In this document: piece by piece, positions 8,812 to 35,845 of the stretch
Numbering within the stretch: position 1 is the first letter of the stretch
Layout: every line of letters begins with the position of its first letter
Source: Panaeolus papilionaceus
Taxonomy: Eukaryota > Basidiomycota > Agaricomycetes > Agaricales
Assembly: GCA_015501605.1 (NCBI GenBank)
Contig: JADNRZ010000039.1
Coordinates: forward strand, 1-64,000
Length of the DNA: 64,000 nucleotides
Reading direction: 5' to 3'
Notes under the pieces: generated by a model
The model's input: the letters and a program-made list of their open reading frames with translations, nothing else
What the model was told of the DNA's origin: nothing
Database searches by the model: none
Made by a program: the position numbers and the translations under genes

Positions 8812-8855
8812 CTATGCGTACGTGTATCAGTCATAATCTCGCAGTGGAATTGATC

Positions 8856-8865
8856 CATCAGTAAA
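8856..8865 (+). repeat. Left terminal inverted repeat of the giant element
   Basis: CATCAGTAAA, directly after the target TC at 8854-8855. It is the inverse of 35828-35837 and nearly identical to the end of the small element at 41482 (CATCAGCAAA). Confidence 0.85.
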
Positions 8866-9207
8866 TTTAAGAGATTCAGATAATGTCTCATATGCATACC
8901 GTAATCGATACCATTGACCATCAGCCAGACAACTTGACAAAATATTACAACATACCTTATGTCGTCATTATAAGAGTACCCCTCGGTACGTCAGTGTCGC
9001 CATTTTCATACCAGGCTGATAAGGCTCTGATATGTGTCTGGTCAGGATGTCACCCATGTCTAAGATCACTTCACGGTGGGCTGTTGTTATCGTTGCTACA
9101 ATGTATGCTATGTCATACCGTGCAGAGGACAAGCTTATTTTAATCTCTCGTTATAGAGGTATCTTACATGTGCTTGTGTAGCAGTAACATATATGGCTTG
9201 TATCCAT

Positions 9208-9735
9208 CAAAACAAATAATAATATTGTCGACCCACCAGGAACTGTGGTTGTGGCTTTAACCCCTCAGTCAATATCAACATCTTAGGTGGTAGCAAGACA
9301 AATAAGATTCTCGACATCTGCTTGGCCAATGCCAGTATTGTAAACAGTAGCAAGACAAATAATAATGTTATTGACTCACCAGGGACTGTCGTCTTGACTT
9401 AAGCGCCTCAGCCAATATCAACATCTTAGAAAATTACAAGACAAATAATAATGTTGTCGACTCATCGTGAATTGTCGCCAAGGCTTTAACCCCTCAGTCA
9501 ACATCAAGATCTTACGTGATAGCAAGACGAATAAGATTCTCGACATCTGCTCGGCCAATGCCAGTATTGTAAACAGTAGCAAGACAAATAATAATGTTAT
9601 TGACTCACCAGGGACTGTCGTCTTGGCTTAAGCGCCTTAACCAATATCAACATCTTAGAAAATTACAAGACAAATAATAATGTTGTCGACTCATCATGGA
9701 TTGTTGCCATGGCTTAAGCGCCTCAGCCAATATCA
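9208..9735 (+). repeat. Left subterminal tandem repeats (period about 229 bp)
   Basis: About 2.3 copies of a composite repeat. The phrase AATAAGATTCTCGACATCTG occurs at about 9301 and again about 229 bp later. Inside each period are shorter related units containing CAAGACAAATAATAATGTT and CCTCAGYCAATATCAACATC. No coding potential is seen. Subterminal repeats are usual transposase binding regions in CACTA-like elements; that role here is inferred. The stretch 9736-9928 between this array and the next gene shows nothing recognisable. Confidence 0.75.
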
Positions 9736-9928
9736 TTATCCAGTCAGGAATTTGACTGACTATGGGATATCTCACAGCCATTTTCAGATGGGCAGGTAGT
9801 AAGCATCACCGTTACTTAAATTCATGCAGCATGTTATGGTATAATTTTCCACAGATCACATATATTGGAAACATATAAAAAGGTATTCTATTCCAATCTA
9901 CTGGTACTTGTAGGAGACTCAAAATGAC

Positions 9929-11572
9929 TCAAGCCCTGGGACGAGATCTTTGTAACGCCAATTTCTTTCGGGCCTTCCAAGAATCTGCGCTAACAGACAC
10001 ATGTTGTGGAAATACCTGCCTAGATAAAACATATTTTGAGTCCTAGATCCAAGCCTTTAATATGATAATATGACAACATACTTATTCCACCACTTTAGGA
10101 GATCCCTCGCCTTTTTGGTAGACTCTTCATCAGGGGTTTCTTCGAAGTAGTCAACAATGAAGTTCCACAAGGTTGGGAAGTTGAAGCCGTTGTACATCTC
10201 TACCCATTGAGCAGCATCTGTAAGATTGAAAACAAGCTTCAAGGATGGATATACAGAATAGAGTCAGGCTTCGTATCTTCAAAAAAGTGCAACTGGGAGC
10301 ATTTCACATACCATTACAGCTGCGTAAGCAATGGAACGAGGGGTGACATTGCCAGACATGTGCAAGATGGTGGCAACGTTGGACTTGGTCGCTTTCTTGA
10401 CTGATCGCTTAACTTTCTTTCGGGAGGGCCCATCCTCAGTTTCACCATCTTCAAATTCATCTGAGGAAGTAGGAGATGTGAAGATAGCACAATATGTCTG
10501 TTAGATGTCAAATTGATGAATGAAAATAATACCGAATAGAATCAAAAACCTGCCTTGACAAGGAGACGACTGCGCAAGAATCCTTTCTCCACATCCTCAG
10601 GAACTCCTCGACCCATAGGATACAGGCAGACCAAAAAAAGGTCATCAGCAATGCTGAGACTGCCGTCTCTGATCTTCGCACGTATCCTTTAGGTTAAAAG
10701 TCAGATAATGGAACTTATAGATGCAATAAAAGAATTAAACATACTCGTCATCCTGCCAGTCATATTCAATGGGACATAGAAGGTGGCCAGTGATATCGTT
10801 GTGCAGTCCACGATCAGCACGAGATTTGACAGAGAAAGGGACAGTGGGAGAAAAACCAGCATTGAGCCAAATTCCAAGCTCCTCCTTGATGCGGCGCAGA
10901 TCATCGCTTCTGGCATCATTAGCTCCTTTTTGGATCTGTCAATGGGGGAAGTGGGGGCGCAAATGGTACAGAGAGTCAACAGGGGGAGTGAATAGAGTGA
11001 AAATGTTAACACACCTGCGAGAGGAGCTTATCAAGGTCTTCAATTTCGGCATCTGGATCATCTAACAAAGACCGGAGAGACGGCACAAGGTGGAGCACAA
11101 TGTTATACCCCCGGTATATGCGTTCAGCACTGCCAGTGGGGACCAAGAGCAGCGGGCTAGTCAGTTTCAAGTTCTCTCAAGAATTGAGGCAAGATGACAC
11201 ACTCTAACTTGGAGTCCTCGTCCATGTCGTCCATACTGGCATCATCGTCAGCTCGTCGGTCTGCTTCGGCAACGATTTGGTCCAAGGTTTCAAACAAGGA
11301 GGCCAGTCGACGGATACCTCGTCCCATTGTGACTGTGGTCCTAAAGCATTTATTGTACAATTAGTGTTATGTCTTGTGTTAAAAGGAGGAAAGGACAAAA
11401 TAACACACTGCTTCTTTTTGGAACACTGGCCTTGAGCGGTTGCAACCTCTTGCTCCAAGGCTACAATCCGACGTTTTAAGGACGATACAATGTTGGCCCT
11501 TGCCTGGTTAGGTGGGGGAGGACTTAACGACTGCGACACTCGGGGTTGACTCAAACTGGGAGAAGAGGACAT
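9929..11572 (-). CDS. DUF6698-like protein, 399 aa
   Basis: Eight exons: 11572-11409, 11340-11203, 11156-11015, 10935-10745, 10686-10554, 10497-10312, 10236-10082, 10019-9929. All are in phase and give 399 aa ending in TGA. The layout fits the agaricomycete family I know as DUF6698: an N-terminal coiled coil (SLKRRIVALEQE), then GRGIRRLASLFETL, an acidic stretch, a central region with TGHLLCPIEYDW, the motif VTPRSIAYAAV, and a C-terminal IVDYFEETP ... LLKWWNKQVF block. Function is unknown. The intron after 10554 has a GC donor. An upstream in-frame GTG is not a credible start. It lies nearest the left end of the giant element, in the same direction as the next minus-strand genes. Confidence 0.8.
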
Positions 11573-12115
11573 AGGAAGGAAATGCAAACGCGATGGTGTG
11601 ACTGGTACCACTCACCAGCTTGAAGTCCTCCTTCTTATATCATAACTTTTCCAAGTTCGTCCAAGACTAAAATTCATGCCAGGCTTCGTCAGCTGGTCGG
11701 CACAACAATACTGACTCATAGACCCATAGTAGCTGCCGGTACACAGGCAGACTGTTCAGGGATAACAGAACCTGACAGATTAGGCTAAGCCAACTGCTTG
11801 GGATTTGCGCTCTTCAGGGACGACCGATGACATGTTAGCCGATTCCGGCTATTTCAGAGGTTTTGTCAGATATTGTTTTTAGCCCCTGTCATGGTAAGCC
11901 AGCGGCAGTGAAAACCAAAACCTCACAAAATATTCATTGGATTTTAAAAAATTGTTAGAAAGACATATTAAGACACTTATTGTCACGGTTGTGCTGTAAT
12001 AGAGTCCTGGTGAGAACATCCACCCCCTTGTATTATCGTTACTGTTGAATTATTAATGACAACTTGAAACTCTGGAGAAACATTACTAGATGTCAGAGTC
12101 GTCATCAAATAAGAG
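11573..12115. other. Intergenic stretch, no gene seen
   Basis: Holds the 5' flank of the DUF6698-like gene and the 3' flank of the small peptide candidate. I see no long open frame, structured RNA or convincing repeat. Confidence 0.5.
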
Positions 12116-12478: not shown

Positions 12479-12649
12479 TCTGAACTTGTATGCGGTATGA
12501 TAAAAGAGAGGTTGGATTAACAGGTGGATGATTGGACTGACCTAAAAATATGTCGACCTTCAAGTCAATCTACCATGCACAACAACATTCGAGTGCGACA
12601 CAACACCCTGACCACCCTTCTAACTAACGGAATCCTTGACCGTTCATCT

Positions 12650-13213: not shown

Positions 13214-14408
13214 TCAAATTTCAACACTCATAGCAATGCTAAGTTCCCTTTCCACTTCCGTCCGCTCAAGTGCATCGCTTCTGATCGCTTGCTCAACCTC
13301 CTCCAAGAATATTCCAATGGCACCTTCGCTCATACCAAGAGACAGGTAGTACTGATGACCAAAGTGAACGACATTCACTGCATAAATAATGTCTCGCTCG
13401 ATAAGACGATCCTGATACTGGTAGAAGTTTAGTAGAGGATACTTATCATCAAGCACCTCAAGAACTGATGCAAGAGAAAGTGCTTCTGTCCGATCGTTGG
13501 GATCGCAAGTGGTCTTCTTCCCTATTATTCCACCATATGTTTGACTGGCTGGGTCAGTTGCTCTCCACCAGTGAAAACAATCTGGTGGAACTCTGCCAGT
13601 GGGATCAGCAAGACCATCGTACTTGATGAGTGAGTTTTAGAAAAGCGGCAGAGCATGGCTACATAGAAGTGAACTCACCATTCTCTTTGCCCACAAATGG
13701 AGCTCCTCCTCTCCTAAGCCTTGATGGTCCTCTGCAGTCTGTGACCCTGCTTTAACATAGCACCAACGATGCGGATGATTGACGCAGCAAAGCTTTCTAT
13801 CAAGGAGAAGCATTTGTGATCTGTAGGCGAGACCATAATAGTTCTAAAGTTTGCTGAGTGCATCGGTGAATAGCGATGGAATCAAGACTTACAAGGTGGA
13901 CCATGACCAATGCAATGACCTTGAGTCGTCGACGGTCGTTCTGAAGCTTCAGGACAGCCCCAATAGCATCTTCTAATTGTGCTTGTGTTTTGAGCTCCCG
14001 AGGCGGAACTGACTGACTTTCATTGCTCAGCTTCCATCCAAATGTTGCAACCGTTGGGTGAACCCCTAATTCTGTGCAAATAAACCTTGTAAAGGTTCCA
14101 ATCATTATGTCTGCTGAGACGAATATATCCCTATCAACAGTGCCAATGGGAACACGAACGCGAACTGTATATTGAAGTTAAAAGGTGATTGGGGCATAAA
14201 AAACTTGAAAGTAACACTCCCCACCTTGTTGCTCTTGACCACGTAAAGATGGACGCGTAAAAATGGAGTGAGAGGCAGAACCAGTATGAGTTGTGCTAAA
14301 GCGCCCAGAGGCAGCACGAACGGATGCTGAGTCAGAGTAGTGAGAGGTGGCAGTATTACTGGTAGCTGCAGTGCTTGAAGTACGACTGGGGAGTGGTCGC
14401 AAATTCAT
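13214..14408 (-). CDS. Unrecognised cargo protein, 342 aa
   Basis: Four exons: 14408-14225, 14164-13893, 13843-13679, 13621-13214; phases agree and it ends in TGA. The first 60 residues are Ser/Thr-rich and look disordered. A compact region follows, starting near VRVRVPIGTVDRDIFVSAD, with a basic segment (KLQNDRRRLKVIALVMVHL) at about residues 130-150, then a C-terminal acidic helical region (GIFLEEVEQAIRSDALE). An ATG at 14501 would add 31 hydrophobic residues; I prefer 14408 because that extension reads like leader sequence. I do not know the family. It shares strand and element with the DUF6698-like and dioxygenase genes. Confidence 0.65.
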
Positions 14409-14955: not shown

Positions 14956-17900
14956 TCATGATTGTCCCAATGAAGCCTGAGACTGTGCAGTATCGGCAGA
15001 TTGAGCTAGCGCTGCCAACTTTGCCTCGTCGTGAGCCTCAGACCAGATGGAATTGGATTGGGACGACAAGGTGGCTTTGAGACTGGGATCATTGTCAAGG
15101 ATGACTTGTGGATCGACGTGTTGCAGATATGAAGCAAGTATATGGTGGAAATCCAAATCCAGCATCCTTGCGTTGTCTTTGAGAGCGTTTTGCAAGCTTC
15201 TTGCATATAGCGCCCTGGAGAAGTTCTGCCAGTAGAGTTGATGGTTGTGGTGACGATGTGCCTCTGGCTGCAGACTCGGATGGGCTTCTAAGCCTTGACT
15301 CCGCAAATCTGAATGCATGGTGATCTCCATGGACATGGAACTTGTTGGACCAATAGTGTAATCTGGTATGATGGTAGTTGTAAGCTGAGGCTGAGGCTGG
15401 CGCGGCCATGATGCGGTCTGTGGTTGCTGAACTTCTAGGGGCTGAGAGTCATACACAGGGTTTGTTGTTGATGGCGACGGGTAAAGATGACTTGATACGC
15501 TTTGATCGACTTCAGTATGAGAATGTGAAGTAAAATCTAAGAACATTGGGTCGGAGGGCCCAGGTTGGGCATCATGATGGTGTTGGCGATGAATTTGTTG
15601 TGCAAGATTTTGCTGTGGCCAGTTGTGGCCCAGGGCGCCCTATGTTCAAGTTTAACAGCCAGTTGTTGACTAGTAGGATTGGATAACAAACCTGAAGACC
15701 GCTATTAGCCTGAATGACAGAACCATGACCTGGGCCATGGGTCAAATAGTGTTGATGACCATGATGGTGTATGTTAGAACTGTAGACCGAGGTGGCTGGT
15801 TGGAGGCTATTACCAGGGGATAGTATCGAGGGTGATGCTGGTGTATTCGCTTGGTTGTCAGTGTACATGGCCAGACTCTGTCTTGTCTGGGTGATGCTTG
15901 GGCGCTTGGGTGTATAAAGGCCACTGTCGCCTGGAGTCAGTGTATCTTGATTCCTTAAGCTGGGCTCAGTGACCCCTGTCAAAAAAAAAAAAGACGGAAA
16001 AAAATAGTGAGCCTCTGAGACAAGACACTAACTTCTATCACAAACTAAATCAAATTGTACCTTGTATAGGAAAAGTTCTGTTCTGCGAGGCCAGAATGGA
16101 CATTAGCATACCAACGTCAACATCTTGGAACTCGCGGACAAGGGCTACTTGAGGCTGTGACCAGGAGCTAGCCGCAGCAGGCTGAGCAGTTGCACCGACT
16201 CGGGAAAAAGTGGAGAGAGGGGCTCTATATGAAGAGGATTGATCTTGCTCAAAGCTGTTGGGTACCAATGGTATCGCAGAAGGTAAAGGGTGGGACATGG
16301 ATATTTGCCCCCACTTGCGAGCACTCATATTGACTACTTCGGCATGTATGTGGGGTAGAACTGGAAGTAGACAGGAGGCGTCCACAGCAGGCGGCTCTAG
16401 CTGGCCCTTCGGATTGCTACAGCAATGATTTGGTTAGCGGTCATTTTCGATCATAATTTTGATACTGAATAGTTATGTAAGGAATAGGTTAACTCACTAA
16501 ATCCATGCGATTTTATTGGCATGCGCCTGTCTTTCTGGTCCTGTCATCAAACGCATCGCCTTGGTGCACTCTTCAAAGACTTTTTGGCGTTCTTTATGAT
16601 CGTCTGTCTTGCTCTTTTCCAGAGCCCGAGCATATGACTGAGCGGTGATCTCAAGGAACGCAGTAGGTGTAGACGAAGAAACAAGTTGCAGACCGCGCTT
16701 GATATATTGTACGCAGTTAATAATCTAACACATGGTGGCATATATCAGTTCAGCACATTTGCACTAAAGAAACGGTAACTCACTCCTTCTATCGCTAAAA
16801 GGACCACATTTTCTGGAAATGTATCAAGTTCTTGGGACCATGCATAAAAAGGAGTTTGAGTGCCAAAAATATCTGGGTTTTCGTATCTGAACTGGCGGAT
16901 CTTAGCGATGACACGAAGTTGCTTGCGCGTTTGGGGGCCTTGGTGACCAAAAGTGAATATCGAGCTCAGCGTTGAATGAGTTTCTTCCAGAAATGATCTA
17001 GTATCTACAAGTACTTGATGAATGATCTCCCCAGAGAAAAAGGAGTATTCTGCATGCGAGGCCACCTAGGAAAGTATTAGTCACAGCTCAATCACTATTG
17101 AAATAAACGAACATGTGATCGGTTGGGTTGGGCGCCTATACAGTCGTGGAACAATAAGAATGTTTTCAAGGCTTGTGGGGTGCCGTCTGTGTTGTTCAGT
17201 TGTAGATCATACTCCTTTATCCAGGGGTTGATGATTTGCTGCACTTCACGATGCGATTTGTCTGGAAGGGAGAGGAACTGAAAGATGGAGTTGAAGATGT
17301 GAGCGCGACGTTGTCTAAGGCGCTTGTGGTATTGGTAAATGATCTGTGGTGGAATAATTATCAGATGTAGTCTTGATAAAGTAAAGCTAGACGTACAGCC
17401 TGTACAACTGGGTTGGGTATCTGAGCCAAGTTTGCAGTTGATGGGTTCCAATTGTCTTTGGAGGGTGTGGTGTGTGTGCTAGTGATGCCATCAGCTGAGG
17501 CCAAAAAGTTGCACCCTCGAACCAAGAGGGTCAATAGTTGTTGGTCGGATGGTATGGGGTTGAGACCATCATGTTGGGCAAGATTCACAAGGGCGCCAAC
17601 CCCTATGACCATCCTCTGCTCAGTAGGGTTCAGGCCTTTGAAAAGTCTGCTATACGCATGCTCGGTGATAACTGTTGTGGGGTGCCAGCGATGGTTGGAT
17701 ATATTACGATTGATCGGCTCAGACCGGGTAGCGCGACAAGGAGTTGTTTCAGCAATGCTGGTGGTTGGAGAAGAGACACCTGGATAGAATGATTGAGTTG
17801 TTGTGACGATCGGCATGGTAGTCGACAATGTGGGAGAGGTCCTTTGCCTCTTTTTACCATGGGTACTGGTGTGTCCATCATTGCTGTCGTCAGTAAGTGC

Positions 17901-17957
17901 GGGTGTGTGTTGAGCGACATGTTTGTGTTGGAAGCCCTGGATCCAAAGATGAGACAT
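14956..17957 (-). CDS. Unrecognised cargo protein, 874 aa
   Basis: Seven exons: 17957-17397, 17343-17113, 17065-16784, 16724-16498, 16416-16061, 15975-15692, 15639-14956; every junction is in phase and the frame is open to the stop. The N-terminal 110 residues are low-complexity and basic (HGKKRQRTSP). A helical block of about 280 residues follows (motifs HKRLRQRRAHIF, FENPDIFG-like RYENPDIFGTQTPF, CVQYIKRGLQLV). The C-terminal 400 residues are rich in Q, H, S and P, like transcription-regulator tails. No known domain is recognised. A possible non-coding leader exon lies upstream (splice-like GTAAGTG near 18056). It is the third gene of the co-oriented series. Confidence 0.65.
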
Positions 17958-18254: not shown

Positions 18255-19713
18255 CTACTCAAGATACAATGACACATCACCATCTTGGTCCGGCTCATGG
18301 ATGGTGAAACCATCCGATACAGGCGAGTGATTGGGGATAGAAGGAGCTCGTGGATAAATCCTAGATATAGTATCCTGGATTTCAGCAAGGGTGAGGGGCG
18401 TTGGAGTATGTAAATCTGGATGGGAAGACACGATCTCAAGACAGTATGCAGCAATATCATCGATGTGCCAGCCGAATTCCTTGAAAGAATCGATGATAGG
18501 AATCAGCTGGTGGTCGGCCTCCTGCGACATTGCTGAGGCCTCTTCGACTTCGTCCACCAGCTTTTCAACCAAAGCTTTGGCATAAGATAGTCTGGCATCT
18601 GCGAGCAGCTTTTTTGCCTCTGCTGTTGTGCGTGTTGCACGTGCAACTGCCAATGCCAGACCAGATTCGAGATTTTCCTGTTGTTTTCCATTCGCCTCAA
18701 GACTCAAAAGGAGGGAGGCCTCCTCACGTTTGCACTGGGCAAGAAAGGCTTCTGCGCTCGATACATTTCGAATAAGGGCCAGAATACGGTCCTTGCTAAG
18801 CGCTTTGTATAGTTCTGCATGAAGGAGGTCCCTTTGCTCCATTGGGGCTGCACGAAATTTTGCCTGATTAGTTTCGTCAGTCATTGATAGCATAGAACAT
18901 GGACTTGAATTCCACTCACCTGGTAATGTATAGACTTTCTAGACGGATCCTGAAGTCGCCAGGATGAGACGACCGCCCACTTCAAGCTTGGAATAAGGAG
19001 CTTATTGCTGCCAAAGGACCTTCCGATGGTAGTTTGATCATTTATTGGAGGTGGCTGGCTGAGAGAAACTTCATGAGACTGAGTGTGGTGAAGCCGCGAT
19101 GAACCTGGCTGCGAACTGGTGCCTGGGGAAGTTCTTGAATCTCTGTCAATGGCGGCGGTGGTCTGAAATAAATTTGGTGAATTGTCCGAATTGTCAGGCT
19201 TGCCACTGTATTGCCACTGAGTTGTCAAAGACTGTTAGTCAGTTGTAGAAAGAAAGCTCATCAGGGTCACCAGTTCCAGTTTAGAAATAAGAGAATACGT
19301 ACATATTGAGACGCGGCGGCATGATCTACATCAAGGTTGGTACCCGAATTTCGATGGGTGGTGTAAGCATCGTGATTTAAGGGAAGTGCGATGTCTGTGC
19401 CAGTAACTTCATTCATAATCGACTCGTGTCTCATCACTACCTGAACTTGAGGTAGATGTTGCCTACGGAGAAGACTCAGAGTGAATGCGTTGAAAATCTG
19501 GCGACAAAGCCTAATAAGTAACCACCGTCCTGCCACTGACTGGGAATAGTCGTCACAATCAGTCCCGACCTCGCTGCCTGCTGAGTTCGTCAGTGGCTCA
19601 GAGCTAACTTGCCTATCATGACTAGCACTTTGCGAGGACTCGGAGGTCGAGGTGGATGCCGTGCCGCTGAATGACTTGAGGTATTGGAGGTATGCTTGTG
19701 TAGAATGAAACAT
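18255..19713 (-). CDS. Unrecognised coiled-coil cargo protein, 438 aa
   Basis: Three exons: 19713-19303, 19216-18920, 18863-18255, all phase 0, starting at ATG (MFHSTQAYLQYLKSF). Residues 18-60 are Ser/Thr-rich. The last exon encodes a long amphipathic, Ala/Glu/Lys/Leu-rich helix typical of a coiled coil (CKREEASLLLSLEANGKQQ; EKLVDEVEEASAMSQEADH), followed by a short acidic C terminus. The family is unknown. It lies directly downstream of the dioxygenase-chromodomain gene in the same direction, about 0.5 kb away, so it may act with it; that is inference from position only. Confidence 0.65.
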
Positions 19714-20218: not shown

Positions 20219-23200
20219 CTAGACAGGCATGGGAGTACTATAGTATGCTAATAAAAGTTCTTGAACATGCTTTAAAGATACGATAAGAGGAAATTGAAAA
20301 TCCAGGTGACTAGTAGGTTTCGATTTAGCGCTACTACTAATAGTAGAAGGCGTTTCAAGTTTTTCTGCAGACTGAGCACAGTCCAAAAAATCTGGCCACC
20401 GTTTGGAGTACCGGGTGATCTTGCAAAGTATGTGTTCGACAAACATTGGACTGAACCCTAGATCGACCTTATCTTTTTCAGAAAGTTGTATATCAAGGAA
20501 CTTCCAAACACAAAAGAAGGCGGGGTATACTGCTAACCCAGAGCGATCGCCAATGCTGAAGCCAAGAGTCTTCAAACCCTTCCATGCTCCAAGGTGTTTA
20601 TTTCTGCCAACCCAATTGACGATTTCTTGACAAGTTGGTTCTTCACAGATTCCAGCCAGGGCAAGGTTATTGGCACACTGAAATACTGTGAGACCCGTTT
20701 GAAAACCAGGAATGCGAAGATTGAGAAGGAATGTCAAGATCGTGAGCCAAGAGGGGCGCCTTCCTTGAAAATTCTGTGGGTCGATGTTGAGATTTGGTCC
20801 TAGGAATTCTTCCCATTGATCCTGAACAGACGAGGTCCAATATGGCTCAAATTTGTGTCGAACACCCCGATACTTCTCTGCCCCTTCAGGAGCTAGGCTG
20901 AATGATCGACTAGGCTGTCCCCAGATACGAGTGTCAAAGCAGGAGATAAAGGCGGGCGATTTATTAGCTTGGAGAGTAGTGCCAAAAATAGCACAATTTT
21001 TGGTCACAGCTGACTGAAAAAGCTGCACTACCTCATCGAGTGAGAACGTGAAGAATTTATGGGGTTTAGAGGCATGCATGCTAAGGAATGATGATGTTCC
21101 TGATCCCTGGCCTGTGCCCATATAGGAGAGAATGTTGCTGAGTCCAGACCGGGTTGTAAGAAGATGAGATGGAAGATTGAGGGCAAAAAGGCAGGCATAT
21201 TCTGAAGATGCTCGAATAGGGTTGGTGTGGTTTATTGGCTGTTTTGCATTTGAAGACAGGGTTGGATGGAGCCCAAGAAGAACACGATGAACTTCGTGCT
21301 GAGCGGCAGGTAGGTTGCGCTTGAGGTTGAGCGCCTCACGAATGATGAGACCTAGAGTTCCGAGACCGACTCCGGACTCAGAAATAAGCAAATCCGCAGA
21401 TGGTTGATAACCTCTCAACGCATTTGGGGTCTGGAGGTCTGCAGCCTTAGAGGGCCGATTGTTGGTTGAGTGTTCCGAGCCATCATCATCGTCTCCCCCA
21501 TCATCATCGTCTGAGGGAGGATGGCCATTAGCCAGAGCATTCATGGTACGGAGTACAGTTTGGTGAATTGATGAGACTGATTGTGAAATATCCGGGTACA
21601 GGGAAATTATTTCGTGAATTGACTGGAGGAGTGGTGCAAGGTGCATTTCGATTTCGTTCTCCTTGAGTATTGCCTTGGCCATTTTCATGTCGTCTCGATC
21701 GTATTTTGTAGACTCTATAATGGAAAAGGGACTCGAAAGAAATAGCTTGATTTGTAGGGTGAAGAAGATTGACGTCCCTCCGCAAATCTCCTGGAGACAG
21801 TGGAGGAGGGCTCCTCGAATGACAGCTCGTTTTTGAATGTGATGTGGTTCGAGACGGCTGCGGTTCCCACTCTGGCGCCGCACTGTAAACTCGTCAAACC
21901 GAGCAAGCTGGGGGATGATAAGATGAGCGGAAATAATTTCCATGAAGATCTTTGGGCCGTGTACATTGTAGACGTAGTCTTGCACATCGTCAATAACACG
22001 TTTGGCCTGTCCGAGACTAAAGGGCTTGGAAAGGTACTTTGAGAGATCGATATCCTTTCTAGGTGTGGAGCCAGTGAGCCCGTATAAGTCGGAGGGAATG
22101 ATGTTGGAGTCCTTCGGTGCATTGTTTGATCGATCGAGAATATATGTACAGTCTTGCATAATCTTCTGGGATCTGGAAGACGAGATTGGAGAGGGGATAG
22201 ATGAAGGTTTAAGAAGAAACTGGATGGTGGACACAAGAAAGTGGACGATGTGATCAGCAAGCTTGGCGAATAGAGGGAGCTGCCGTTGTAGATGTTGAAA
22301 TCCATGCTCTCGATGAGCACTCATAATATGGCTAGCCAGACGTGGACCATACTTATAATACCACTCATAGACAGAAACCCACATAATGCATGTCTCTGCC
22401 TGAACAGAGCGCTCGATATACGGTGCTGTCCAGTTAGCCTGCTTTAGTGGTGGGAGTTCTTGTAAAGACTGGCTCAAGAGGTTGAAACTGAGTAGATCCA
22501 TCGTAATGGGATTATTGTGCGCTAAAATGGGCCGGTAGGCATCAAAGACAAGCCGGCTAGATAAGAGACCATCCAATTCCTTGATTACTTTATTGAAGGA
22601 ACGCATAGATCCCTTCCATACAGCGGGGTTGAGTTGTTGTCGACGATATTCTTCTTCTAGTGTAATTGCTTCGCATTTGAGATCCTTGGGGTCAAGGATA
22701 GTGCGAAGCTGCTTAAGACTGTGTGCAAGGACAAGGACGTTTCTCTGGGTTGAGTCGCCAAGATTAGGTTTTTTTGATTTGTGAAGAGACTCCGCTGAAA
22801 AACATGGAAGAATAAGCGAATTTGCTGATGCATAATCGGCAAGGGTCTCGATGCAGTGTCTAGAGTATGTATTGTTATGTTCTATCCAAGGTTGAAAAAT
22901 AGAGAACCCACTCCAAGTTTTCGGCAGGCTGCCAGTCTGGATCATCATAGCCTTTCCATCGGATCAGGAATTCGAGCTTTCTCTGTTTTGCGATTGTTAG
23001 ATTATAAAATAGACAAGATGGGTACGCAAGAGCAATAGCTCACCGATTCGGTGTTAAAGCGATGTCTTTCAATACCATCCACCTCGTATTCAGGTTCCAC
23101 CTCCAGATCTGTAGATAAATCCCCTTCGCTTTGTGCAAATGGTCGCTTTGTTCCCCGCGTCTCATGTGTAGGTTGTGTAGTTTTGCGACCAGCTCTAACA

Positions 23201-25748
23201 GGAAGCTTTTTTATCGGTCGCTTCAAGTTTTTAACGAGGTTTGCGGCCGTTGTTGGGTTTGTTGATTTATGGGAGTCAGATTGCTGGGTGGCAATTGGGG
23301 CAGACGGTGGAGTATTGTCTGCGCTATGAGAAGTATCTGAAGATGATGGGGCCATAATGTTGGAAACCATGTTCGCATATTCAAAGGTGGGTTCGCTGCT
23401 TATATTTATCACAGGAATTTGGTTCTGATTGGATATAGACGATGTAGTATTCTGCAGCCATTGAATAACTTCCTTTCGACCACTTAGGCTGTAAATCTGT
23501 CAAGTTGGTTCAAAAATACGTAATTAAATTTACAGACCTTGGGTGGCTTGCATTTAGCGTAACCGGTGAATCCATACTTGACACTTGAATAGTGAAAAAC
23601 GTCTAGACAAAAACACAAAGAGTTAATTCAGTCTAACATGCAGAGTACGAACACTCTTACCTGGTTGTCAAATCTTTTGCAGGAAATGACCTTAATGACG
23701 TCGTCTGGTGAAAAGGGAGATTCGCTAAATGGTTCTGGCTGCGATGTGCCGATTTGTATTCTTCCTGGAAGGTCACAACTCGAATTGTCTCCTTGTAACA
23801 CTCTACGTCGACTGCGAATTTCTCCTTTGGTGATTCGAATATACAGCGCATGGCACCAAAATGAATGCCATCGATACAGAGAAACTAACCGCTGAATGTT
23901 TTGAGCATGTTCTTGAGGGTTGTATCGAAGAGGCTCCATGGAAATTCGTTTCCCGTCTTCTCCTGATATACTGATACGGCTGAGAAGGTCGCTGAGATTC
24001 ATGTCAAAATCCAGATCTGAAAGACAAAGGCCATTGTAGAAGTTGAAGACAACTTCTCGAGCTAAGCGATTGGCGCAGGCAGACGGTGGTCCCAGAGTCG
24101 CTGGACCATGTGATCCAAAGTTCAAATAGCTATCTATCTTTCCAGCAGATTTGGCCATGGAACTTGTAATATTCCCAAAAGATGTTGGAAGTGTTGCGTT
24201 CAATGAGCCAGACCGGTCAAGGGAGACGCGAGAGCTATACATGACATAACCAGCACGATTTGGGGGACCTGCCATGTTATACGCTGCATGAAGCTCAGAG
24301 TCGGTAACAAATGCCTCATGATCGTCAATTTGCTCTACCGGAGGAAAGCCAGAGTGTATATCGACCCCCTTGAATACTAAAAAGACGATCCAAGCGTCGA
24401 TATTGGCAGAATACAGTCCCCAGCGTCCAAGACAGAAAGGACCTGGATGACCCTCTAAAACGTGCATCACAGTTTAGCATAAGAATACTACTGAAAGAAA
24501 TATAGACTTACTCGGTCCAACACGAAGGAGTAAGATGAAGAGTGTGAAGCGGTCAGGATCATCATTGACATCGGTGTGCCACATCCCTTGTACTTCCCCT
24601 ATAGCATCTTCCAGGCTCGACCCGAGAGACGAGATATTGAGTTGTATGCTTGTAGCTGCCGGCTCCAAGCCTCCAGAGCAGAATGCATTCATGTATTCGG
24701 CGTGAAAGGTTGTAATGTCATATTCAAATCGTGAAATGCATTTCGGCAATACAAGTCGGTACAAGGAGTGAAGTGTCTGCAAAATTGCTTGAATTTGGGC
24801 TGACGCAGCTGGCAAATCTGTTTGGACAGTGGGAATAATGGTGCCAGGCCCATCGCCCTTCATGATAGTATTTCCGAGGTTGAACGAGCCATCATATTTT
24901 GAAATATGGGTTGTCTTTCGATGTTGGTGACGATCGTTGACTTTGAGTTTGAGTGTGTACACCGGGGGTATCACTGCATGACCGTCGTAACCTGGTCTGC
25001 CCCAGGTAAGCTGGGCAAGACGTATAGACAATTCTTCGATGTTGTTGTATTCGGCGCACCATCTCAGAGATGAAAGATTTTGAAAGCATGCAACTGTTTG
25101 AGGTAGGTCAGGGTTTCCATCGATGTACACCACAAATGGAATTCCAGGAATCAAATTGATCATCCCGGGGATAGGTTTAAGCACGTATCGGCCTTCCATT
25201 AGAACGGGTGTACATTCAGGCGGTGTTTGGATTGCGAGTAACGATTGGCGATGTTCCTCGCAGAAGGTCAGAGGGTAATCCGCTACGTAGATGGACCCAG
25301 AGGCATATCGGCAATCTTCTTGGAGACGGTATTCCAGAGCAACAGGATAGTAACCCTGTGGAGGTGGTTGACACGGTGGAGGAACCAACTTCGGCAGTAA
25401 TTCGCGCTTGGTTTGATCGTCTCGATGAATAGACGGATATGTGAATTCCTCAGCACACCAATCAGGTGCGATGGCATCTGGGGGCTTAGACGGCATTCCA
25501 AACCGCACTCTGCTGGAAATTGATTGGGCTATAAGTTCCATGTTTTTTCAATTTAGCGCAAGTTCAGACTCAAGAGTAGCATGACAACATATTTACCTCT
25601 GCTTGACGCAATAAACGCCTCAGGGAGCGTGACATTCTTCAGTGTCTTATGAGCAAAAAGACTGTCCAAGGACTTGCAGACAAGTCAGTATCATGAAAAT
25701 ATAAAGGTTCAAATGAAAAATATCTCTAACCTCAGGCTTGGGGTCCAT
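20219..25748 (-). CDS. Predicted TET/JBP-like 2-oxoglutarate dioxygenase with chromodomain, about 1,702 aa
   Basis: Exons 25748-25731, 25672-25597, 25528-24512, 24454-23661, 23576-23538, 23496-23044, 22982-22912, 22859-20219 keep one open frame throughout. Residues about 350-450 carry a 2-oxoglutarate/Fe(II) oxygenase signature: HTD (H349, D351), the strand AWIVFLVFKG, distal H404 in DIHSG, and R446 in a YSSR segment. These resemble fungal TET/JBP enzymes, which oxidise 5-methylcytosine. Residues about 783-825 form a chromodomain (YEVDGIERHR, then FLIRWKGYDDPDWQPAENLE, interrupted by an intron). Residues 825-1702 are an unrecognised helical region with an acidic Asp run near 21480. It could instead be two genes, the second starting near 23376. 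A competing frame (23884-23657) reads well and leaves exon 4 uncertain. Confidence 0.6.
22859..23080 (-). other. Chromodomain segment
   Basis: The chromodomain is encoded across exon ends at 23044, 22982-22912 and 22859. Conserved features are the first aromatic in YEVDGI, the strand FLIRWKGY, and the C-terminal W/N-L pattern (DWQPAENLE). Chromodomains bind methylated lysines, typically H3K9me or H3K27me; the target here is not known. Confidence 0.75.
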
Positions 25749-27033: not shown

Positions 27034-29155
27034 ATGCGAAACACTCGGTCAGGCCGCGAATATGGACCGGTTCAGAGTCTGCCCTTTAAACTACTCATGC
27101 AGGTCGCTGATCTTGTCGTCGAGAGACTGGATTCGAGGTTGGCCGTTCGTGACAAGGCATTCAATGTGGATGTTGTTACTTCACGGGTTACAGAGAGCGT
27201 CGAAGGGCTGTTGAAGTCTCTCTACGAGATGCCTGCTGCGCTGAACACTGTATTCGCTGCTCAGGAGGAAGTCGAGAAGGCTCAAAACAGATTCACAGCT
27301 AGCCAGGCCGAGTTAAAGGATGCTGTCCTTGTCGAACTACCTACACCAGCCAGCTTGAGGATCTCAAAGCTACTCAGGAACACATCTTGCAGAAGTTTGA
27401 TCAACTTCAAGCTGTCTCCGCTCCCGAGCCGGACAGCAATGTGCTCATTGTGAAGGAAGTCGTCGAGAAGCTTGCAGTGGAACAACACAAATTGGCTCAA
27501 CAATCCGACGAAACTGTTTCTCACAACAAGGCCGTAATGGACAAGCTCGCCGCTCTTCCCGACTCGTTCAAGGACGTCACAACTTCTCTTCAAGCTGGAC
27601 TCATGGAGCTCATCACCTCGCGAGACGCCACCAAATGCGAACTCGAGGAGTTGCGCAAGACCAACACGGAGAACCAAGTGCAGGTTGCGAAGGCTCGGGG
27701 TGCGCATGGTCAAGTCCGTGTGGAGAAGGATGTGCTAGCCAAGAAGCTTGGTATCGTGGAGGGTGATCGTGATCGGTTGCGCGCACAGGTCAAGGACCTC
27801 TGGAAAACGACTTCGGACAAGGTTAAAGATATAAGTGCATTGGAAGTCAAGTATGCAACCCTAGAAGCCGCTCTCTCAAAGGCACCTGAACGCCTCCAGG
27901 ACTCCGACGTAGCTGCTACGCAAGACAAGCAGAAGATCGCCAATTTGGAGAAGGCCAACAGGGAGCTGCTCGAAGAGAAGCAGGGGTTGAACATCAGGGT
28001 AAGCCTTTTTGAATATTGCATTCTTTGGCTTTAGCTTCGCATTTACTAATTGCACTTGTGATCAATAGGTTGAGTCATTTGAGGCAGAAGTTAAATTCGC
28101 ATTCCGCGAACATGACAGCGCACTAAAGGCTCATGAATCACTTCAGAAGCAGCAGCAGGAACTCATTGCCCAGCAAGGTAAATGGGAGATACTCGACGCC
28201 GCTACGGAGAAAATCAACATGGTGTTCAACCTCGAGAATGCTGACAGCGAAGAGCAGAAGGAGCTTCGCCTGCATCAGGATCGCAGCATGGCTCTGGAGA
28301 ACGAGAATCTGGCGCTGCAGAAATGTCTCAAGGAACTGGAAGCTAAAGTGGCTAACAGTGATAGGGCCGCAGCGACAGCCAGGCAAAGCTTGACACAAGC
28401 TCAGCAACGTTCCTCCGATTGGGAACATCGGGCGAAGGAGTATGAAGGACAGGTCGAGATGATTCAGACCCAATTAGAACAGGCCGAACAAACTCAGCAT
28501 CAACTCCAAGCCGATTACAACACCCTTAAGGAAGAGCAAGAGGCTGATAGTCGTCTCGCAAAGGTAATTTTGACTTCTGCATCGTTTTTTCATGACGACT
28601 CTAACGTTATCATCTTACCACTTGCAGGATCACAAGGAGAGGCTTCAACCTCAGATCAGTGCGCTAGAGTCTAAATGCAGCGTTCTGCAGAGTGAGCTCG
28701 AAAAGGCTAACGCTTCTCGACACACGACGCCACCGACATCAACACCTTACAGAGCTCACACCAACGGAGCTGCCACTCATCCTCCGCCTAGACCTGACTC
28801 TAGAGCTAGCACAATCCACGATGGCTGTGGGGGTGACTTTAATCGACGTGTATCCTCGTCCCGGAATGCACTTTCATCATCGCAAAATTCCCAGTCCTCT
28901 CAATCAGTCTAAGATTCAATGTACGCACCAGCCGCACCTAGCACCGATGGGTATACCAGCACAGCGAGCAAATACACCTCTCCAGCTCCACTCGCAGCTA
29001 CCGGGCATTACAGCAACTATACACCTTCTACACCTAAAGCACGCCTCTCAATGCCGCTTTACAACAATTCATATCGTGCTAGTCGCGGCCCTTCACCTAC
29101 TCCGAGCGTCGTTTCAGCAGTACCGACGCAAGGAGATGACGGCTGGTGGTCATAA
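27034..29155 (+). pseudogene. Decayed coiled-coil protein gene
   Basis: Starts at ATG (MRNTRSGREYGPVQSLPF). Exons are about 27034-27998, 28069-28563 and 28628-29155. The translation is a long coiled coil rich in K, E, Q and L (for example EKINMVFNLENADSEEQ), then a Ser/Pro/Tyr-rich tail ending GDDGWWS. Two lesions break it: a frame change between about 27330 and 27385, consistent with a one-base deletion, and an in-frame TAA at 28910-28912, after which the same frame continues to 29155. The family is not recognised. It lies inside the giant element as decayed cargo. Confidence 0.6.
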
Positions 29156-30736
29156 ACCGATTTTCTCTCCCATTTATTCAATTCTCTTCTTTCTTCGTCT
29201 ATATTCGCTATTTCAAATTCCTATGCGTTATATTTGTCACATATCCATTATTATACCTAATCTTCGCAACAGGCTTTCTACAACATACCTACACTTCGAC
29301 TCAGATGACTCACAGCAGAAAGTTGTGTTACCTAAGGACATGTAGTGAATATCTGGCCCAGCAGCGCAAGAAGAGACTGCGGAGAGTACAGCGCGGTCAA
29401 CCTTTGGAAAAGGCGATCATGATCGGGTGGAAGTAAGCAGCATGGGGTAATTGTAACCTATTCCCTAGTCGTCATCAGGGAGCCCTTGAAACGTGAGTGT
29501 CTCCTTCAAGTTTTTCGTGTGTTTGTTGGCATGTTTTGTTGAAACTCGCTCAGATATCGCAGTCTTTATCCACGACTTCCTCACGTAGCCAATTTCCATC
29601 GCATGAGACTCATGTCGCTCTATCCAAGTGCGTTGAATGAGATGTCAGAGACTGGGCCAAGGTGAGTAATGACATGTTATTGTCTAATTCGTTTTGGAGA
29701 TGGGACTCGGATCCCTAATTTTTCAGATATGGAGCTCAGCAGCGACGCCTCTCAAAACTCTTACGCCAACTGCCTTGACTGTTACACATGTCAACTTTTC
29801 CCATTTCTGGCACCACGACGACAAAATACCCCATGCGTATGGGCGGTGGTGGTCCGCTAGGCTGGATCATCAAGGGGGAGGACGGTTTAATGGTGGCTAT
29901 GGGATCGGTATCGACTTCCAAAGGTGGATGCACAGTGTCTGTCCTGATTTATTTTCAAAACACTGACTCGTCTTTATTGTTGGCGCATATTACAGGTGTG
30001 ATGGACTTTTTGGTTACACAGAGCACTGCGGCTAAAATTAGTTCTGAACCATTTTTAAACCTTATCGCTGCACATGTGCCCTCTGGTGATTGAGATTGAA
30101 TGACGTAGAAAGACAGATTTTCATGGAACAGCGGAAACTTGAAGTACCGCTGGCAATGAAGGAGATTTTACGAGCTTTCATACCTCTGTTCAAATCACCT
30201 CACGGGTGCTAGTGCTACATGGCGGTTTGGGGAAGTAGAGCGATCTTAAATTATAGTCACCATGCCAGCACCTGAGTCGCTCTAAGGCGTCTTAGGCTCA
30301 GCTGATGATTAGCACAAAATGAATGAAAATCATTGTACACCTTACATGGTTGTGAGCAGTCATTTCTTTGGCTATCTATTATTCATTGTGAATCCCTCCG
30401 ATATCATCGATTGGTAATAATGTGTGAAGCTCATATTCAACATGAATTTGGTTCAGCTTGATTCAGACTCCGCCTTACCTGTGTATGAGTCATCCGAGGA
30501 ATCATCATCTTGAGCTTGAACTTGAATGTTTGAACATTAAACTTGAGCTCATTCAGGCTTGAGCTTGAAACACATTTGGTTGGCATAGCATATTGCCTGT
30601 TATGCTTGTCAAATTAAACCCAGCTTCTAGCTACCGTGACGGTCAAACACTTAGAAATATTGGTCTCAAAATTGCCCTTCGACTTGTTCTTCGAGTTATC
30701 ATCGCAACTTCCCTCATCATATTCTTTCTCCAAGCC
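29156..30736. other. Region without a clear gene; possible exon relics near 29580-30090
   Basis: A splice-like pattern (donor GTGAGTAATG near 29660, acceptor TTTTCAG near 29727) joins short plus-strand frames, including a Gly-rich stretch (MRMGGGGPLGWIIKGED), but no complete frame or family is evident. The stretch 30100-30736 holds the 5' flank of the transposase and repeats of GCTTGAACTTGA-like phrases near 30510-30570. Confidence 0.4.
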
Positions 30737-33700
30737 ATGCCCGAGTCCAATCTGAAGTCGCTTGGTCATCGTTGCGTTCGTGGATGTGATAGAGTCTTTT
30801 ATGAGCAATCACATCTCACCAAGCACAAGAATTCTTGCGACCTCTCCCAAGATTTCAAGCGCAAAGTTGACTCGGAGCGTCGAGCCAGAGGCCTGGAATC
30901 TTTGCTTCCCAAAGACACACTATCACCAGCATCACGGATGTCCAGGAAGAGCCGTTTGATGGGGCTACAGGTAATGCATAAACTTTCTTATACGGGTTTG
31001 GATTGTCTGGATTATTGAAAACAGCAGCTCATACGTCTGCTGTTAGGGTATTGCTCCAGCAAAGTCCTCCAACGCCGTGGCAGGGCCCAGTAACAATTCT
31101 CAGGCCAATATGTCCTCTACAGAGTCTACACCACCCCCTACATTGCCACAATCGCCACAGCTTACACGTGCTGGTCGGCCTCGTCGGGAATACAAGTTAC
31201 CCAAACGATTTCAAGACTATGTTCCAGAATCATTGACATCGTTTATCGATGAAGCACTACCGACTACAAGACGAGTTTTGCTCATCGTGCGTGACCGTCT
31301 GATGACCTGTCTTGACTCTTTTGGCGTGTGGAGGGAGTACCCAAATCGACCCAGCACAGATCCCGACTCCCTGTTGACCTTGGAGGACTTGGCCAACCAC
31401 CGACTTGGGGACACGATGTCAACTTCTCTGCAGAGAGATATTCAGTCATCCCTGAACGATCACACTGCTTCGGCTCATTCTGGGAACTCAACCAGCCAGG
31501 AACGACCTAGTTATTGGCCATTCGCAAATCCCACAATACACTCTGTTATGTCCTGGCTCAATGATGGCCAGGTTGCCAAGTCAGAAGTAGAAACCACCAA
31601 ATTCGTCCATGATGTGATACTGTCCCCCACTTTCCAGAGCCACCACCTGCTAGGTTTCGACGCCCACCAGCAGAACCAACTCTTGGACCGGCAAATTTCC
31701 CAATCTCAACTCCACAATCAATTTTCAAAGAGCAGTCTACAAATACAGATTCCTTCAGGCCAGCAAAATGTACCATCCGTCCCTTTCAATATTCCGGGAT
31801 TTCTTTCACGGAACATTGTTGATGTAATTAAGGAAGCGTTTACGAGCCCCTATTCACATCTCCTGCATTTCTCGCCTTTCCGAATTTTTCGTCGGGATCC
31901 CAATACTGGTGTTGACGAGCGATTATATGGGGAGCTATACTCCTCTGATGCCTTTCTCGCTGAATCTGATAAAGTTCGCTACAAGTCACCTCCAGACCCC
32001 AACGATCCCGATTGCCAACGAGAGAAGGTTGTGGCTGCACTCATGTTTTCATCGGATGCAACACATCTCACCGATTTCGGAAATGCTAAAGCCTGGCCAA
32101 TCTACCTCATGCTTGGCAATCTCTCCAAATATATCCGTTCACAAGTTAATTCTGGTGCGATGCATCATCTGGCCTATATTCCTAGTGTATGTATTTCCCT
32201 TCATCTACTTGGATTGTGCTGATAACCTGCTTAGCTGCCAGAGTCATTCAATGCCTTTGTTGAGAGCTTCCACCCCAAGTGGAGAAGCCAGAAGGGCCAA
32301 ATTCTGACACATTGTAAACGCGAGTTGCTGCAAGAAGTGTGGAGATCACTACTGAATGATGAATTTGTCAATGCATACAAGTATGGTATCGTGATAATGT
32401 GCGTCGATGGCATTGAGCGTCGCATATTTCCTCGAATCTTTACATACTCTGCAGATTATCCTGAGAAGTAAGCCATGTTCGTTAAACTAGCTTATTCTAT
32501 TGATGCTGACTGTGTTTCCTGTCTTTCAGAGTCCTTCTTGCCACAATACGTGATAAGGGCATGTGCCCATGTCCGCGATGCCTAGTGCCCATGCAGAGCC
32601 TTGACCAATTGGGTACTCCTGTCGATCAAGCAACACGATCTGAATCACAGCGCGTATATCGTACCAAGGAAGTCAAGAACGCACGCGCTCTCATTTATAA
32701 GCAAGGGAAAGCCGTCAATGGAGCAAATGTCGAGGCAATACTTAAACCGTTCTCTGGTGTGCCCACAGTTGTGAGTATTGTCCACCTTAATACTCGATTT
32801 GTTTAGCTCAATTAGTCTTAGAACGCCTTTGTTGAGAGGTTGGGCACTGACTTTAATCCCTCTACTATGCTTGTTGTGGATCTACTCCACGAATTTGAAT
32901 TGGGTGTATGGAAATCCCTCTTCTCTCATTTGGTTAGACTTCTCCATGCTGCAGGAGGTTCAGATCGACTTGTCATCGAGATGGATAGGAGGTAAAAACA
33001 TTATTGAGACCTCTTCCTTCATGATTTATTAACTGCTTTTAGGTTCTCTGCTATCTCGACATTTGGGCGTGGAACAATACGGAAATTTCCAGCAAACTCG
33101 TCGGATATGAAGAAGATGGCTGCTCGAGATTATGAGGATCTTCTTCAAGTAAGCCCATATTTTTTTTTTAAAAAGTGATCATTTGAGTTGATAAGATGTA
33201 CCAGTGCTGTATCCCCGTTTTTGATGGGCTTTTACCTGAACCCCATAACCGCCACTTGCTCGAGCTACTTCATGTCACATCAGAATGGCATGCACTCGCC
33301 AAGCTTCGCATGCATACAGAGACTTCCCTACAACGCTTGCATACTCTCACCACTGATTTTGGAATACAAATTCGATGATTCAGAGACACGACTTGTGCAC
33401 ATTATCAGACCATTGAATTGCCGAGAGAAGCGGCCGCGCGCGCGCGACGAGAATTATCCTCATCCTCTGATAGTCACCGTACGTTTAAGTCCAAACCTCG
33501 CCCAGTAACTTTTTGATCACTAAGCCGCATTCAATTATCTTTTGGATGTATAGGTGGACCCTCAAGGACAGGCGATGCTTCTACCAGGAGGCCAAAAACT
33601 TTGAACCTTCAAACTGTGAAAATGCATTTCCTTGGCGACTATGTTGATCATATTCAGAGGTTTGGCACGTCTGATTCGTACTCTACCCAACTAGTGCGTA

Positions 33701-35059
33701 TCTCCCCATATCTTCTCTATTGTCTGCTCTGATTATACACTTGTCGCTTAGGGAGAACTTCAGCATCGTATCATCAAACAGTTATATGGGCTCACCAATA
33801 AAAAGGATTCTATGGAACAAGTAGGAAGGAAGTATATTCGGAAAGAGGTGTTGCGACCAGAGGAACAACAGGAATTGTTAGAAATGAAAATGAAGGCGAA
33901 ATTAGAAGACCGATTTATCATCTCTGATTCACACAACCTTCCCATTTCCCTTCTGGAGCTTGTCGGGGGGAATGGTCCGACACTCGCTTCAAAGGTGTGG
34001 CCTGGTAGCATTCCGTCTCTTGTCAAAATGTTGCTGATCATGATTGGCTTCAGAATTTTATTTCCAATCTGCGTACCCATTTACTGTCCCGGCTTCTGGA
34101 CAGCAAAGCCGAGCAAAATTTCACCGACACAGAATTAAACTCCCTTAGGATTCGAAATAACATCATTTTCGGGCATTCAACTGCCCGTGTCAACTATACG
34201 ACATATGATATGCGGCGTGATTTCGACACAATCAACCCTCGAACGCACCCCTTTATAATGGCTATTTCTCCTGAAGCTGCTGGGTACACAGCCTCGGATC
34301 CCAACCCCAAGTCTGGTACCAACACTCCGATTTTTTGGTATGCCGCAGTTTTGGGTATATTTCATGCCGACGTTCAACGCATCGGGTCAAATTCTGGAGA
34401 TCTTCGCTATCGCACTCTCCCCTTTCTTTGGGTTCGTTGGTTTGAACCATCACCAGGCCATCTTCCTGGACAATACCCACAGCTTCCTAAATTGCGACTT
34501 CTACCAGAAGAGGATGACTTTTCTTATGGTTTCCTCGACCCATCACTTGTGTTACGAGGTTGTCATCTTATCCCAGCATTTCGTGATGGTGAGTTGGTAA
34601 CACAGGAGCACACAATTTATTATCGAGGGCGCTCTATCATGAGTGAAACAATGCTGCGCCGATGGCAGCATTATTACGTTGGAATGTAGGCACCCATCGA
34701 GATTTCCACTGTTTCAACCTTGCTGATTAAATTGGAACACCTTTTTCAGCTTTGTTGATCGTGATATGTTTATGAGACATTCTAGTTTAGGTCCACACAC
34801 CCCATCGACTTATCAAGCTTCGTTGCAACCAGACAACCTCCATGACAATAGGACAGTGTTTCCATCATCCCAACCTGTGCCACATGCCAGTGAAAGCATG
34901 GATATAGACGAAGGAGATAGCACAGCACTAGTACAAGAGGAGGATGAGGCAGTGGAGGTCTTCGAGGGAGAGGATGGGGTGGTGGACGTTTTGGAGGGAG
35001 AGGATGAAGAGGACGACACCACCAGTGATACCTCCGAAGTGCCCTATGACGACCTGTAA
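30737..35059 (+). CDS. Plavaka-type transposase, 1,240 codons with one in-frame stop
   Basis: Exons: 30737-30970, 31047-32186, 32235-32467, 32530-32770, 32822-32991, 33043-33148, 33205-33478, 33554-33693, 33752-33994, 34054-34685, 34750-35059; all phases agree. An N-terminal zinc finger is visible (C13, C17, H30, C34). The core matches the fungal Plavaka group of CACTA/EnSpm-like enzymes: FSSDATHLTDFGNAKAWP (candidate acidic residue D415), FPRIFTYSADYPEK, CPCPRC, and VVDLLHEFELGVWK (D636). The C terminus carries GELQHR, YYVG...FVDRDM and an acidic tail. Codon 766 (33376-33378) is TGA between IQIR and FRDTTC, otherwise the gene is whole. It lies about 0.8 kb from the right terminus and is the likely mover of the element. 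Confidence 0.8.
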
Positions 35060-35827
35060 TCATATACTCATTGATCAATCACGTTGTAAAGTAATAGGAA
35101 CTTGAATGGGTATTATATGTATAGTTGACTTGTCAGAACCGATAGGTCTTGGGAGATATGCGAAAGCTATTAATGATGGGAGGTTATCCGTTGCTAAAGG
35201 GGTGGTTATACCTTGGAAGGCAGTTGGTGGCCACCAAAGTCTATCGGATATCAGAGGTTATGGGATAGGACAGCTAGTGGTTAAGACAGAGTCTCTGTTT
35301 TATTCATGCACCCAACTTGTCTCACTATCAGCATTAACCATGACGATGATATGAGAAGTCATCATATTTCTGAAATCAACACACAAATATGTCAGTTAAA
35401 TAAAATCACATATAATAAGATGTCGTTCTGTGAGGAACATGCAACAGCAATGTCAGAATGATGTCATAAGGCAAGGTTGGTCTCGTGCAATGTCATGGTT
35501 CTGAAATCAATACATGAAAATATATGGCCTATGTAATCGTACATTTATCCGATATGATCAGGCATCATTCTGTGGGGAGTAGTGCCGCATTGGTGTCAAG
35601 ATTAGAGGTCAACAAAAGCGGATGTATAGCTTATAAAATATGGTGCCCTGACCATAATATAAAGCCAGACATGCATGCTCAGCGTGAGATTGATAAGCGC
35701 TTCTGTCTTGCATATAACCAGACAGGATTTTGGCTCTGAAACTACATGTTCACGTATGGACATGTCAGGGATAGGCGATGTGTTACATAATCATCTGACC
35801 TGCAACAGCAAATCAATTGTTGATTTT
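35060..35827. repeat. Right subterminal region with short repeats
   Basis: No gene. TTCTGAAATCAAYACA occurs twice about 131 bp apart (near 35369 and 35500), and ATCATTCTGTGGGG/GTCGTTCTGTGAGG variants flank them. Many ATGTCA/TGATGTC words occur. This mirrors the left subterminal array and may bind transposase (inference). Confidence 0.55.
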
Positions 35828-35837
35828 TTTACTGATG
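35828..35837 (-). repeat. Right terminal inverted repeat of the giant element
   Basis: TTTACTGATG, the inverse complement of the left end. Read inward it continues CATCAGTAAAAAAATC, very close to the left end of the small element at 41482 (CATCAGCAAAAAAATT). The target TC follows at 35838-35839. Confidence 0.85.
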
Positions 35838-35845
35838 TCACTAAC

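Follow-up and report, generated by a model that had tools for sequence, protein, structure and literature searches.

Why is a DNA transposon in the mushroom Panaeolus papilionaceus 27 kb long, and do the genes between its ends belong to it or ride in it as cargo? The question is raised by one inserted unit (positions 8856-35837, 26,982 bp) in the 64-kb stretch analysed here (the window; 64,000 nucleotides, positions 1 to 64,000 of contig JADNRZ010000039.1, assembly GCA_015501605.1). A first-pass annotation made from the sequence alone had read this unit as a cargo-bearing DNA transposon with a Plavaka-type transposase and had set it beside the Starships. Here, we report its boundaries, its sister copies in the same genome, the genes that accompany its transposase, and the origin of part of its contents. 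Coordinates are collected in Table 1.

Table 1. Features of the window element and positions of its large sister copies (window coordinates unless a copy is named by its own sequence)
Feature	Position	Strand	Remarks
Left target-site duplication TC	8854..8855	.	flank sequence
Left terminal inverted repeat CATCAGTAAA	8856..8865	+	conserved subterminal block extends to ~9020
Core gene A	9929..11572	-	8 predicted exons, DUF6698 (PF20414, E 8.9e-41)
Core gene B	13217..14177	-	family without known match; exon pieces
Gene X	14956..17957	-	fast-evolving, 26% identity to C1 copy
Core gene C	18255..19713	-	divergent from transposase
Chromodomain protein gene	20219..23488	-	PF00385, E 3e-7; 914-aa open frame
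2OG-Fe(II) dioxygenase-like gene (candidate)	23628..25496	-	3 predicted exons, GT-AG introns; HxD...H...R motif
Captured host gene 3' part	27099..29281	+	2.19 kb; source C5:111000-113190; both introns kept; decaying
Plavaka transposase	30602..34689 (end approximate)	+	PF18759, E 1.8e-32; in-frame TGA 33376-33378
Right terminal inverted repeat	35828..35837	-	pairs with left end
Right target-site duplication TC	35838..35839	.	flank sequence
Empty site, sister copy 1 of host locus	599..618	.	others near 45441-45460 and 63108-63162
C2 copy	382892-403707		20,816 bp; duplication TA/TA, both ends
C3 first copy	517290-537841		20,552 bp; duplication GA/GA, both ends
C70 copy	1071189-1098518		27,330 bp; duplication TC/TC, both ends
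C42 copy	113242-138879		25,638 bp; duplication GA/GA, both ends
C1 copy	2807389-2830127		22,739 bp; duplication GA/GA, both ends

The unit is confirmed as a real, well-bounded DNA transposon insertion. Its inverted repeats are perfect over 10 bp (CATCAGTAAA); the first bases from 8856 are CATCAGTAAATTTAAG, and the last bases up to 35837 are TTTACTGATG. Self-comparison of the window found the host locus four times, and in all three sister copies, which lack the insert, the sequence left of 8855 joins the sequence right of 35837 directly. Flank homology to the sister loci stops at 8855 and restarts at 35842-35848. Both element ends were compared with the whole genome (50.85 Mb, 71 contigs). The left 301 bp matched 14 places including the window, with every alignment beginning at element base 1 and the 13 matches elsewhere covering 126-195 bp; the right 301 bp matched five places including the window, with every alignment finishing at the last base and 57 bp recurring at the other four. 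The first-pass description of a single 27-kb transposon was exact in its ends, coordinates, and TC duplication, its transposase assignment was borne out by PF18759, and the empty site that it had deduced from three sister host copies was found in each of them.

The host locus is a P-loop-containing gene present four times in diverged form (window 1-8855 and 35838-64000; blocks 74-93% identical), and the frame beside the left junction has weak Pfam matches to ABC_tran (0.0017) and MMR_HSR1 (0.0065). Just inside the left end of the element, positions 9208-9735 hold a 299-bp direct repeat, the copies of which overlap at a 229-bp offset and are 90% identical.

Six large copies with both ends, including that in the window, were located (20,552-27,330 bp); all six have a 2-bp duplication and CATCA..TGATG termini. 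Matching duplications flank all eight insertions for which both ends were read (the six large ones and two of ~1.2 kb); chance would give 1/16 each and ~2e-10 for all eight. A second copy on C3 was found with its right end only (at 1326136), and at the C23 locus neither element end was found within the 36 kb read. The C2 copy and the first C3 copy are 99.4-99.6% identical over ~19 kb, bar one extra stretch in each, and nothing is shared between their flanks in the 3.9/3.7 kb compared on the left or the 3.3 kb compared on the right. Near-identical copies thus sit at unrelated sites, and therefore units of ~20 kb move whole; this sister unit transposed recently. The first-pass annotation had proposed looking for same-ended copies at other sites and aligning full copies, and within this genome both searches succeeded: five more large copies with 2-bp duplications were recovered, and a gene block proved common to the copies compared.

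After the large copies, eight left-end matches remained, two of which were read. These are small non-autonomous elements on C71 and C40 (1176 and 1211 bp, CATCAG..CTGATG ends, duplications AA and TC) without the gene block, being too short to hold it; PlavakaB transposases probably mobilised them in trans.

The transposase of the window copy has a C2H2-like finger at its N terminus, scoring under the profile cut-off, and a CPRC that was recognised by eye in the model (a candidate for the C(2)C motif, which PlavakaB has along with H(3-4)H and DDE). At the position of its first TGA, a sense codon is present in all six of the other copies used for comparison; a second TGA, in the same frame (33514-33516), lies in a poorly conserved stretch. 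Because two stops interrupt the transposase frame, the window copy is probably non-autonomous now. The C2 and first C3 transposases are open in the compared stretch (models both 1332 aa, with 13 of 3999 bases differing), and several other copies have stops of their own there.

Gene models were built with a purpose-written simple exon finder (many short introns), and their exon boundaries are predicted. Genome-wide searches with the transposase and with genes A, B, and C found all three genes adjoining the transposase at 16 of 16 close-transposase loci, defined by a transposase match of at least 62% identity over a long stretch (C33, which is the window, two on C3, and C1, C2, C70, C42, C4, C20, C45, C30, C71, C34, C12, C9, and C23); the DNA itself was read at eight of these. 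Left out of the count were a 94-aa fragment on C11 (79%) and distant or short matches at 29-53% identity, among which C25 has a weak gene A match (32%) nearby. Gene A is further found by itself on C5, as is a C-like gene at C4:132339. Since A, B, and C accompany the transposase at every one of the 16 loci, we regard them as genes of the family and not as cargo; the association persists even where the transposases have diverged widely (identity as low as 62%). Gene X was found at seven of the eight loci examined and not at C23. At its position in the C2 copy lies a gene with a KH domain (PF00013); the C2 counterpart of gene C gave no Pfam match.

The size of the window element is therefore very probably to be explained by a cut-and-paste transposon of the PlavakaB type that is large through a conserved accessory block divergent from the transposase (A, which is the DUF6698 gene, B, C, and X in the compared copies). 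Copies lacking the special segment of the window copy (C2 and the first C3 copy) still measure 20.6-20.8 kb, and two others owe some of their size to nested DNA, the C70 copy having a Ty3/gypsy within its gene C and the C42 copy a hAT-type gene. The first-pass count of at least five non-transposase genes stands as a number; it fails as a count of cargo, at least three of them (A, B, and C) being standard family genes. "Cargo-bearing" likewise holds for the captured host DNA described below and not for the recurrent block.

Elements of one Ty3/gypsy family with a chromodomain integrase occur at C70 and C23 (~85% identical), nested in PlavakaB genes or next to them. The idea of a "cargo slot" occupied by the C70 gypsy was considered and rejected, the gypsy lying within gene C.

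What sets the window copy apart is the gap between gene C and the transposase, which spans 10.9 kb here versus ~290 bp in C2. The 10.9-kb segment contains the dioxygenase-like gene, the chromodomain gene, and the 2.19-kb host gene fragment. It is single-copy in this genome and could be a post-insertion addition. The exon finder merges the chromodomain gene with the dioxygenase-like gene, which are either one gene or two. For the 914-aa chromodomain frame, no protein-database homologue was found at E 0.001 among 7991 candidates scored. That frame and the dioxygenase-like protein have old genomic relatives, both on C28 and 230 kb apart, with no core genes beside either within the 9-10 kb around each; the chromodomain frame has an additional 96-residue match on C6.

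The host fragment is plainly copied host DNA, 95.7% identical to C5:111000-113190 over 2193 columns. The C5 region is the 3' portion of a host gene predicted to encode 2199 aa and includes two introns and a stretch past the stop. The direction of transfer is read as C5 to element, because the C5 gene is long and open and the window copy is a piece with a 7-bp deletion; the route was DNA and not RNA, because the introns are retained. On this sequence comparison, the fragment is best described as a host-gene capture at the DNA level, made either by the window element or by an element nested inside it. With C5 as the reference, the captured copy has 44 C>T/G>A differences, 30 of them on CpG, a context that covers 282 of the 1114 C/G positions (p 3e-9); when the comparison is turned round (window to C5), the bias is weaker (11/24 on CpG, p 0.008). 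The pattern fits CpG methylation of the element, as a signal that is not exclusive to it. Such a methylation trace makes a demethylase-type gene plausible and identifies none.

The dioxygenase-like protein has W-H-T-D followed by conserved F-K-G-x-D-I-H-S-G and N-R-x-G-Y, stretches common to Panaeolus, Suillus, and further homologues wherever covered (one homologue is in Suillus placidus and one in Panaeolus cyanescens). Among the homologues, P0001, P0002, and P0003 cover the HxD and retain it; the later H is retained in P0002-P0004 and the R region in P0003 and P0004. We take HxD...H...R to be the TET/JBP pattern, shared with other 2OG-Fe(II) dioxygenases. Searches with this protein returned nothing from Pfam, including Tet_JBP, at E 1 and nothing from the PDB by sequence at E 5; hhalign against five of the six Tet_JBP-like proteins of the genome gave no match (shallow profiles), and two AlphaFold2 models (mean pLDDT, 27.7 and 35.2) were too poor for use. 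The gene is therefore a candidate that is TET-like by motif only, TET identity having been supported by no test. Where the first-pass annotation had listed one chromatin/DNA-modification candidate, there are two: the chromodomain protein is upheld by its Pfam match, and the TET-like dioxygenase is unconfirmed.

Six Tet_JBP profile matches occur in the genome (C56, C24, C61, C10, C23:2142824, and C11), one of them above the family cut-off, and none lies within the six both-end copies. The C23 match lies ~12 kb past the transposase piece of C23, at a locus in which no element end was found.

The C1 copy encodes a predicted 1200-aa protein (C1:2818292-2822426) with an HxD...H pattern, by which it presumably resembles JmjC; in the second C3 copy, a remnant of this gene lies between gene C and the transposase. 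JmjC identity gained no support for the C1 protein, which gave no Pfam or PDB match and the many genomic relatives of which do not coincide with the five PF02373 (JmjC) matches in the genome. In the C1 copy, the block made up of genes C and X and the JmjC-like gene seems to run in the opposite orientation relative to the other copies.

Whether the PlavakaB element itself gathered the 10.9-kb segment is the point at which another reading deserves attention. The segment may be a second mobile element, such as a non-autonomous Helitron, nested in an ordinary PlavakaB that captured nothing, which we consider possible if somewhat doubtful. Its occupation of one intergenic gap would suit a nested element, as would the gypsy and hAT-type DNA nested in the C70 and C42 copies; fungal Helitrons, moreover, capture gene fragments, and the available part of one account has some of them carrying TET genes (PMC12730594). 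Against it, the Pfam scans of the segment's main frames found no other transposase, integrase, or helicase, and no convincing inverted repeats bound the segment around 19.7-30.6 kb among the 25 longest of 64 pairs; the pairs in that set that enclose a large part of it measure 14-20 nt and are 80-93% identical.

The remaining alternatives concern the element as a whole. It is large and multi-gene and has host DNA inside, as a Starship-like giant element shuttling host-beneficial cargo between genomes would have. That reading is very improbable, given a Plavaka transposase, 2-bp duplications, core genes that belong to the element, a captured piece that is a decaying fragment with its deletion, and no tyrosine recombinase in the main proteins scanned against Pfam. 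The first-pass comparison with Starships accordingly goes too far, the PlavakaB type having already been described (PMC12730594). A segmental duplication or assembly join, ending by chance in short repeats, might be suspected in a window where the host locus is repeated; it has practically no credibility beside ends that recur at exact base positions and matching duplications at 8/8 insertions.

For a PlavakaB-type transposon with its own accessory block, a mechanism can be sketched. The transposase would recognise the CATCAG-type ends and excise the unit, as membership in the CACTA/EnSpm-related group suggests, and the unit would insert at a dinucleotide target, which would become duplicated. 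Genes A, B, C, and X may support transposition, expression, or escape from silencing; host methylation or chromatin silencing might be countered by the dioxygenase-like gene and the chromodomain gene. A broader proposal, which we put forward tentatively and consider unlikely, is that mushroom PlavakaB is a lineage whose members are large, multi-gene DDE transposons, with an accessory block that stays fixed and, beside the transposase, a position whose contents can be exchanged. That position would take up host gene pieces and chromatin-modifying enzymes (one branch having a TET-like dioxygenase and a chromodomain protein, another a JmjC-like protein), making a counter-silencing platform that arose independently of Starships.

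A fungal DNA transposon with a Plavaka transposase can thus reach ~20 kb, hold several genes, and still move as one piece. Such a unit can also come to contain host DNA, and a large cargo element is therefore not necessarily a Starship with a tyrosine recombinase. With their common gene block, the 16 loci offer material on the role of DUF6698 and its neighbours for the transposon, and the system raises the question of whether transposon-borne dioxygenases undo host methylation.

KDZ and Plavaka reportedly are dominant, understudied DNA elements in the genome of Marasmius oreades. By its sequence, the window element is of the PlavakaB type, a CACTA/EnSpm-related class already described (PMC12730594), of which the window element, with its gene block and host fragment, is a variant. 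PlavakaB is defined, in the part of the source at hand, by CATCA..TGATG termini and a 2-3 bp duplication (Kojima 2025, PMC12730594), and the window element is like it in termini, duplication, and Plavaka transposase. TET-positive PlavakaB is reported there from two Agaricales, Agaricus bisporus and Gymnopus confluens, and some Helitrons carry TET genes as well (PMC12730594). Some PlavakaB members have a TET/JBP gene where the window element has a TET-like candidate by motif; the Plavaka TET proteins of that account are of the PE type with HxE, whereas the window protein has HxD (HTD) (PMC12730594). The portion of the PlavakaB description available to us has no mention of an accessory block, a size of 20-27 kb, or host gene capture, and neither "chromodomain" nor "JmjC" occurs in the main text (PMC12730594). 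In the open-licence literature, PlavakaB was found in this one paper (Kojima 2025, PMC12730594), and nothing was found on DUF6698 or on Plavaka with cargo.

Enlarged EnSpm/CACTA elements of 16-20 kb with four to five ORFs are described, in the section of the paper at hand, from the red alga Chondrus crispus (PMC6431247). They resemble the window element in belonging to a related superfamily, in being oversized, and in having several ORFs; the host is very different, and the likeness drawn here is one of size and ORF number (PMC6431247). Starships, as characterised in the sources available, share with the window element the standing of a large fungal cargo element but have a tyrosine recombinase and Pezizomycotina hosts, in contrast to its Plavaka transposase. 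Plant CACTA elements capture genes, and the Pack-CACTA/Pack-TYPE elements, which are small, hold host gene fragments between their ends. The window element is like Pack-TYPE, as far as the accounts at hand describe it, in that its transposon ends enclose part of a host gene with the introns retained. Pack-TYPE elements are non-autonomous and without a transposase gene, whereas the window copy is 27 kb long, keeps its gene block, and has a transposase that is present but interrupted.
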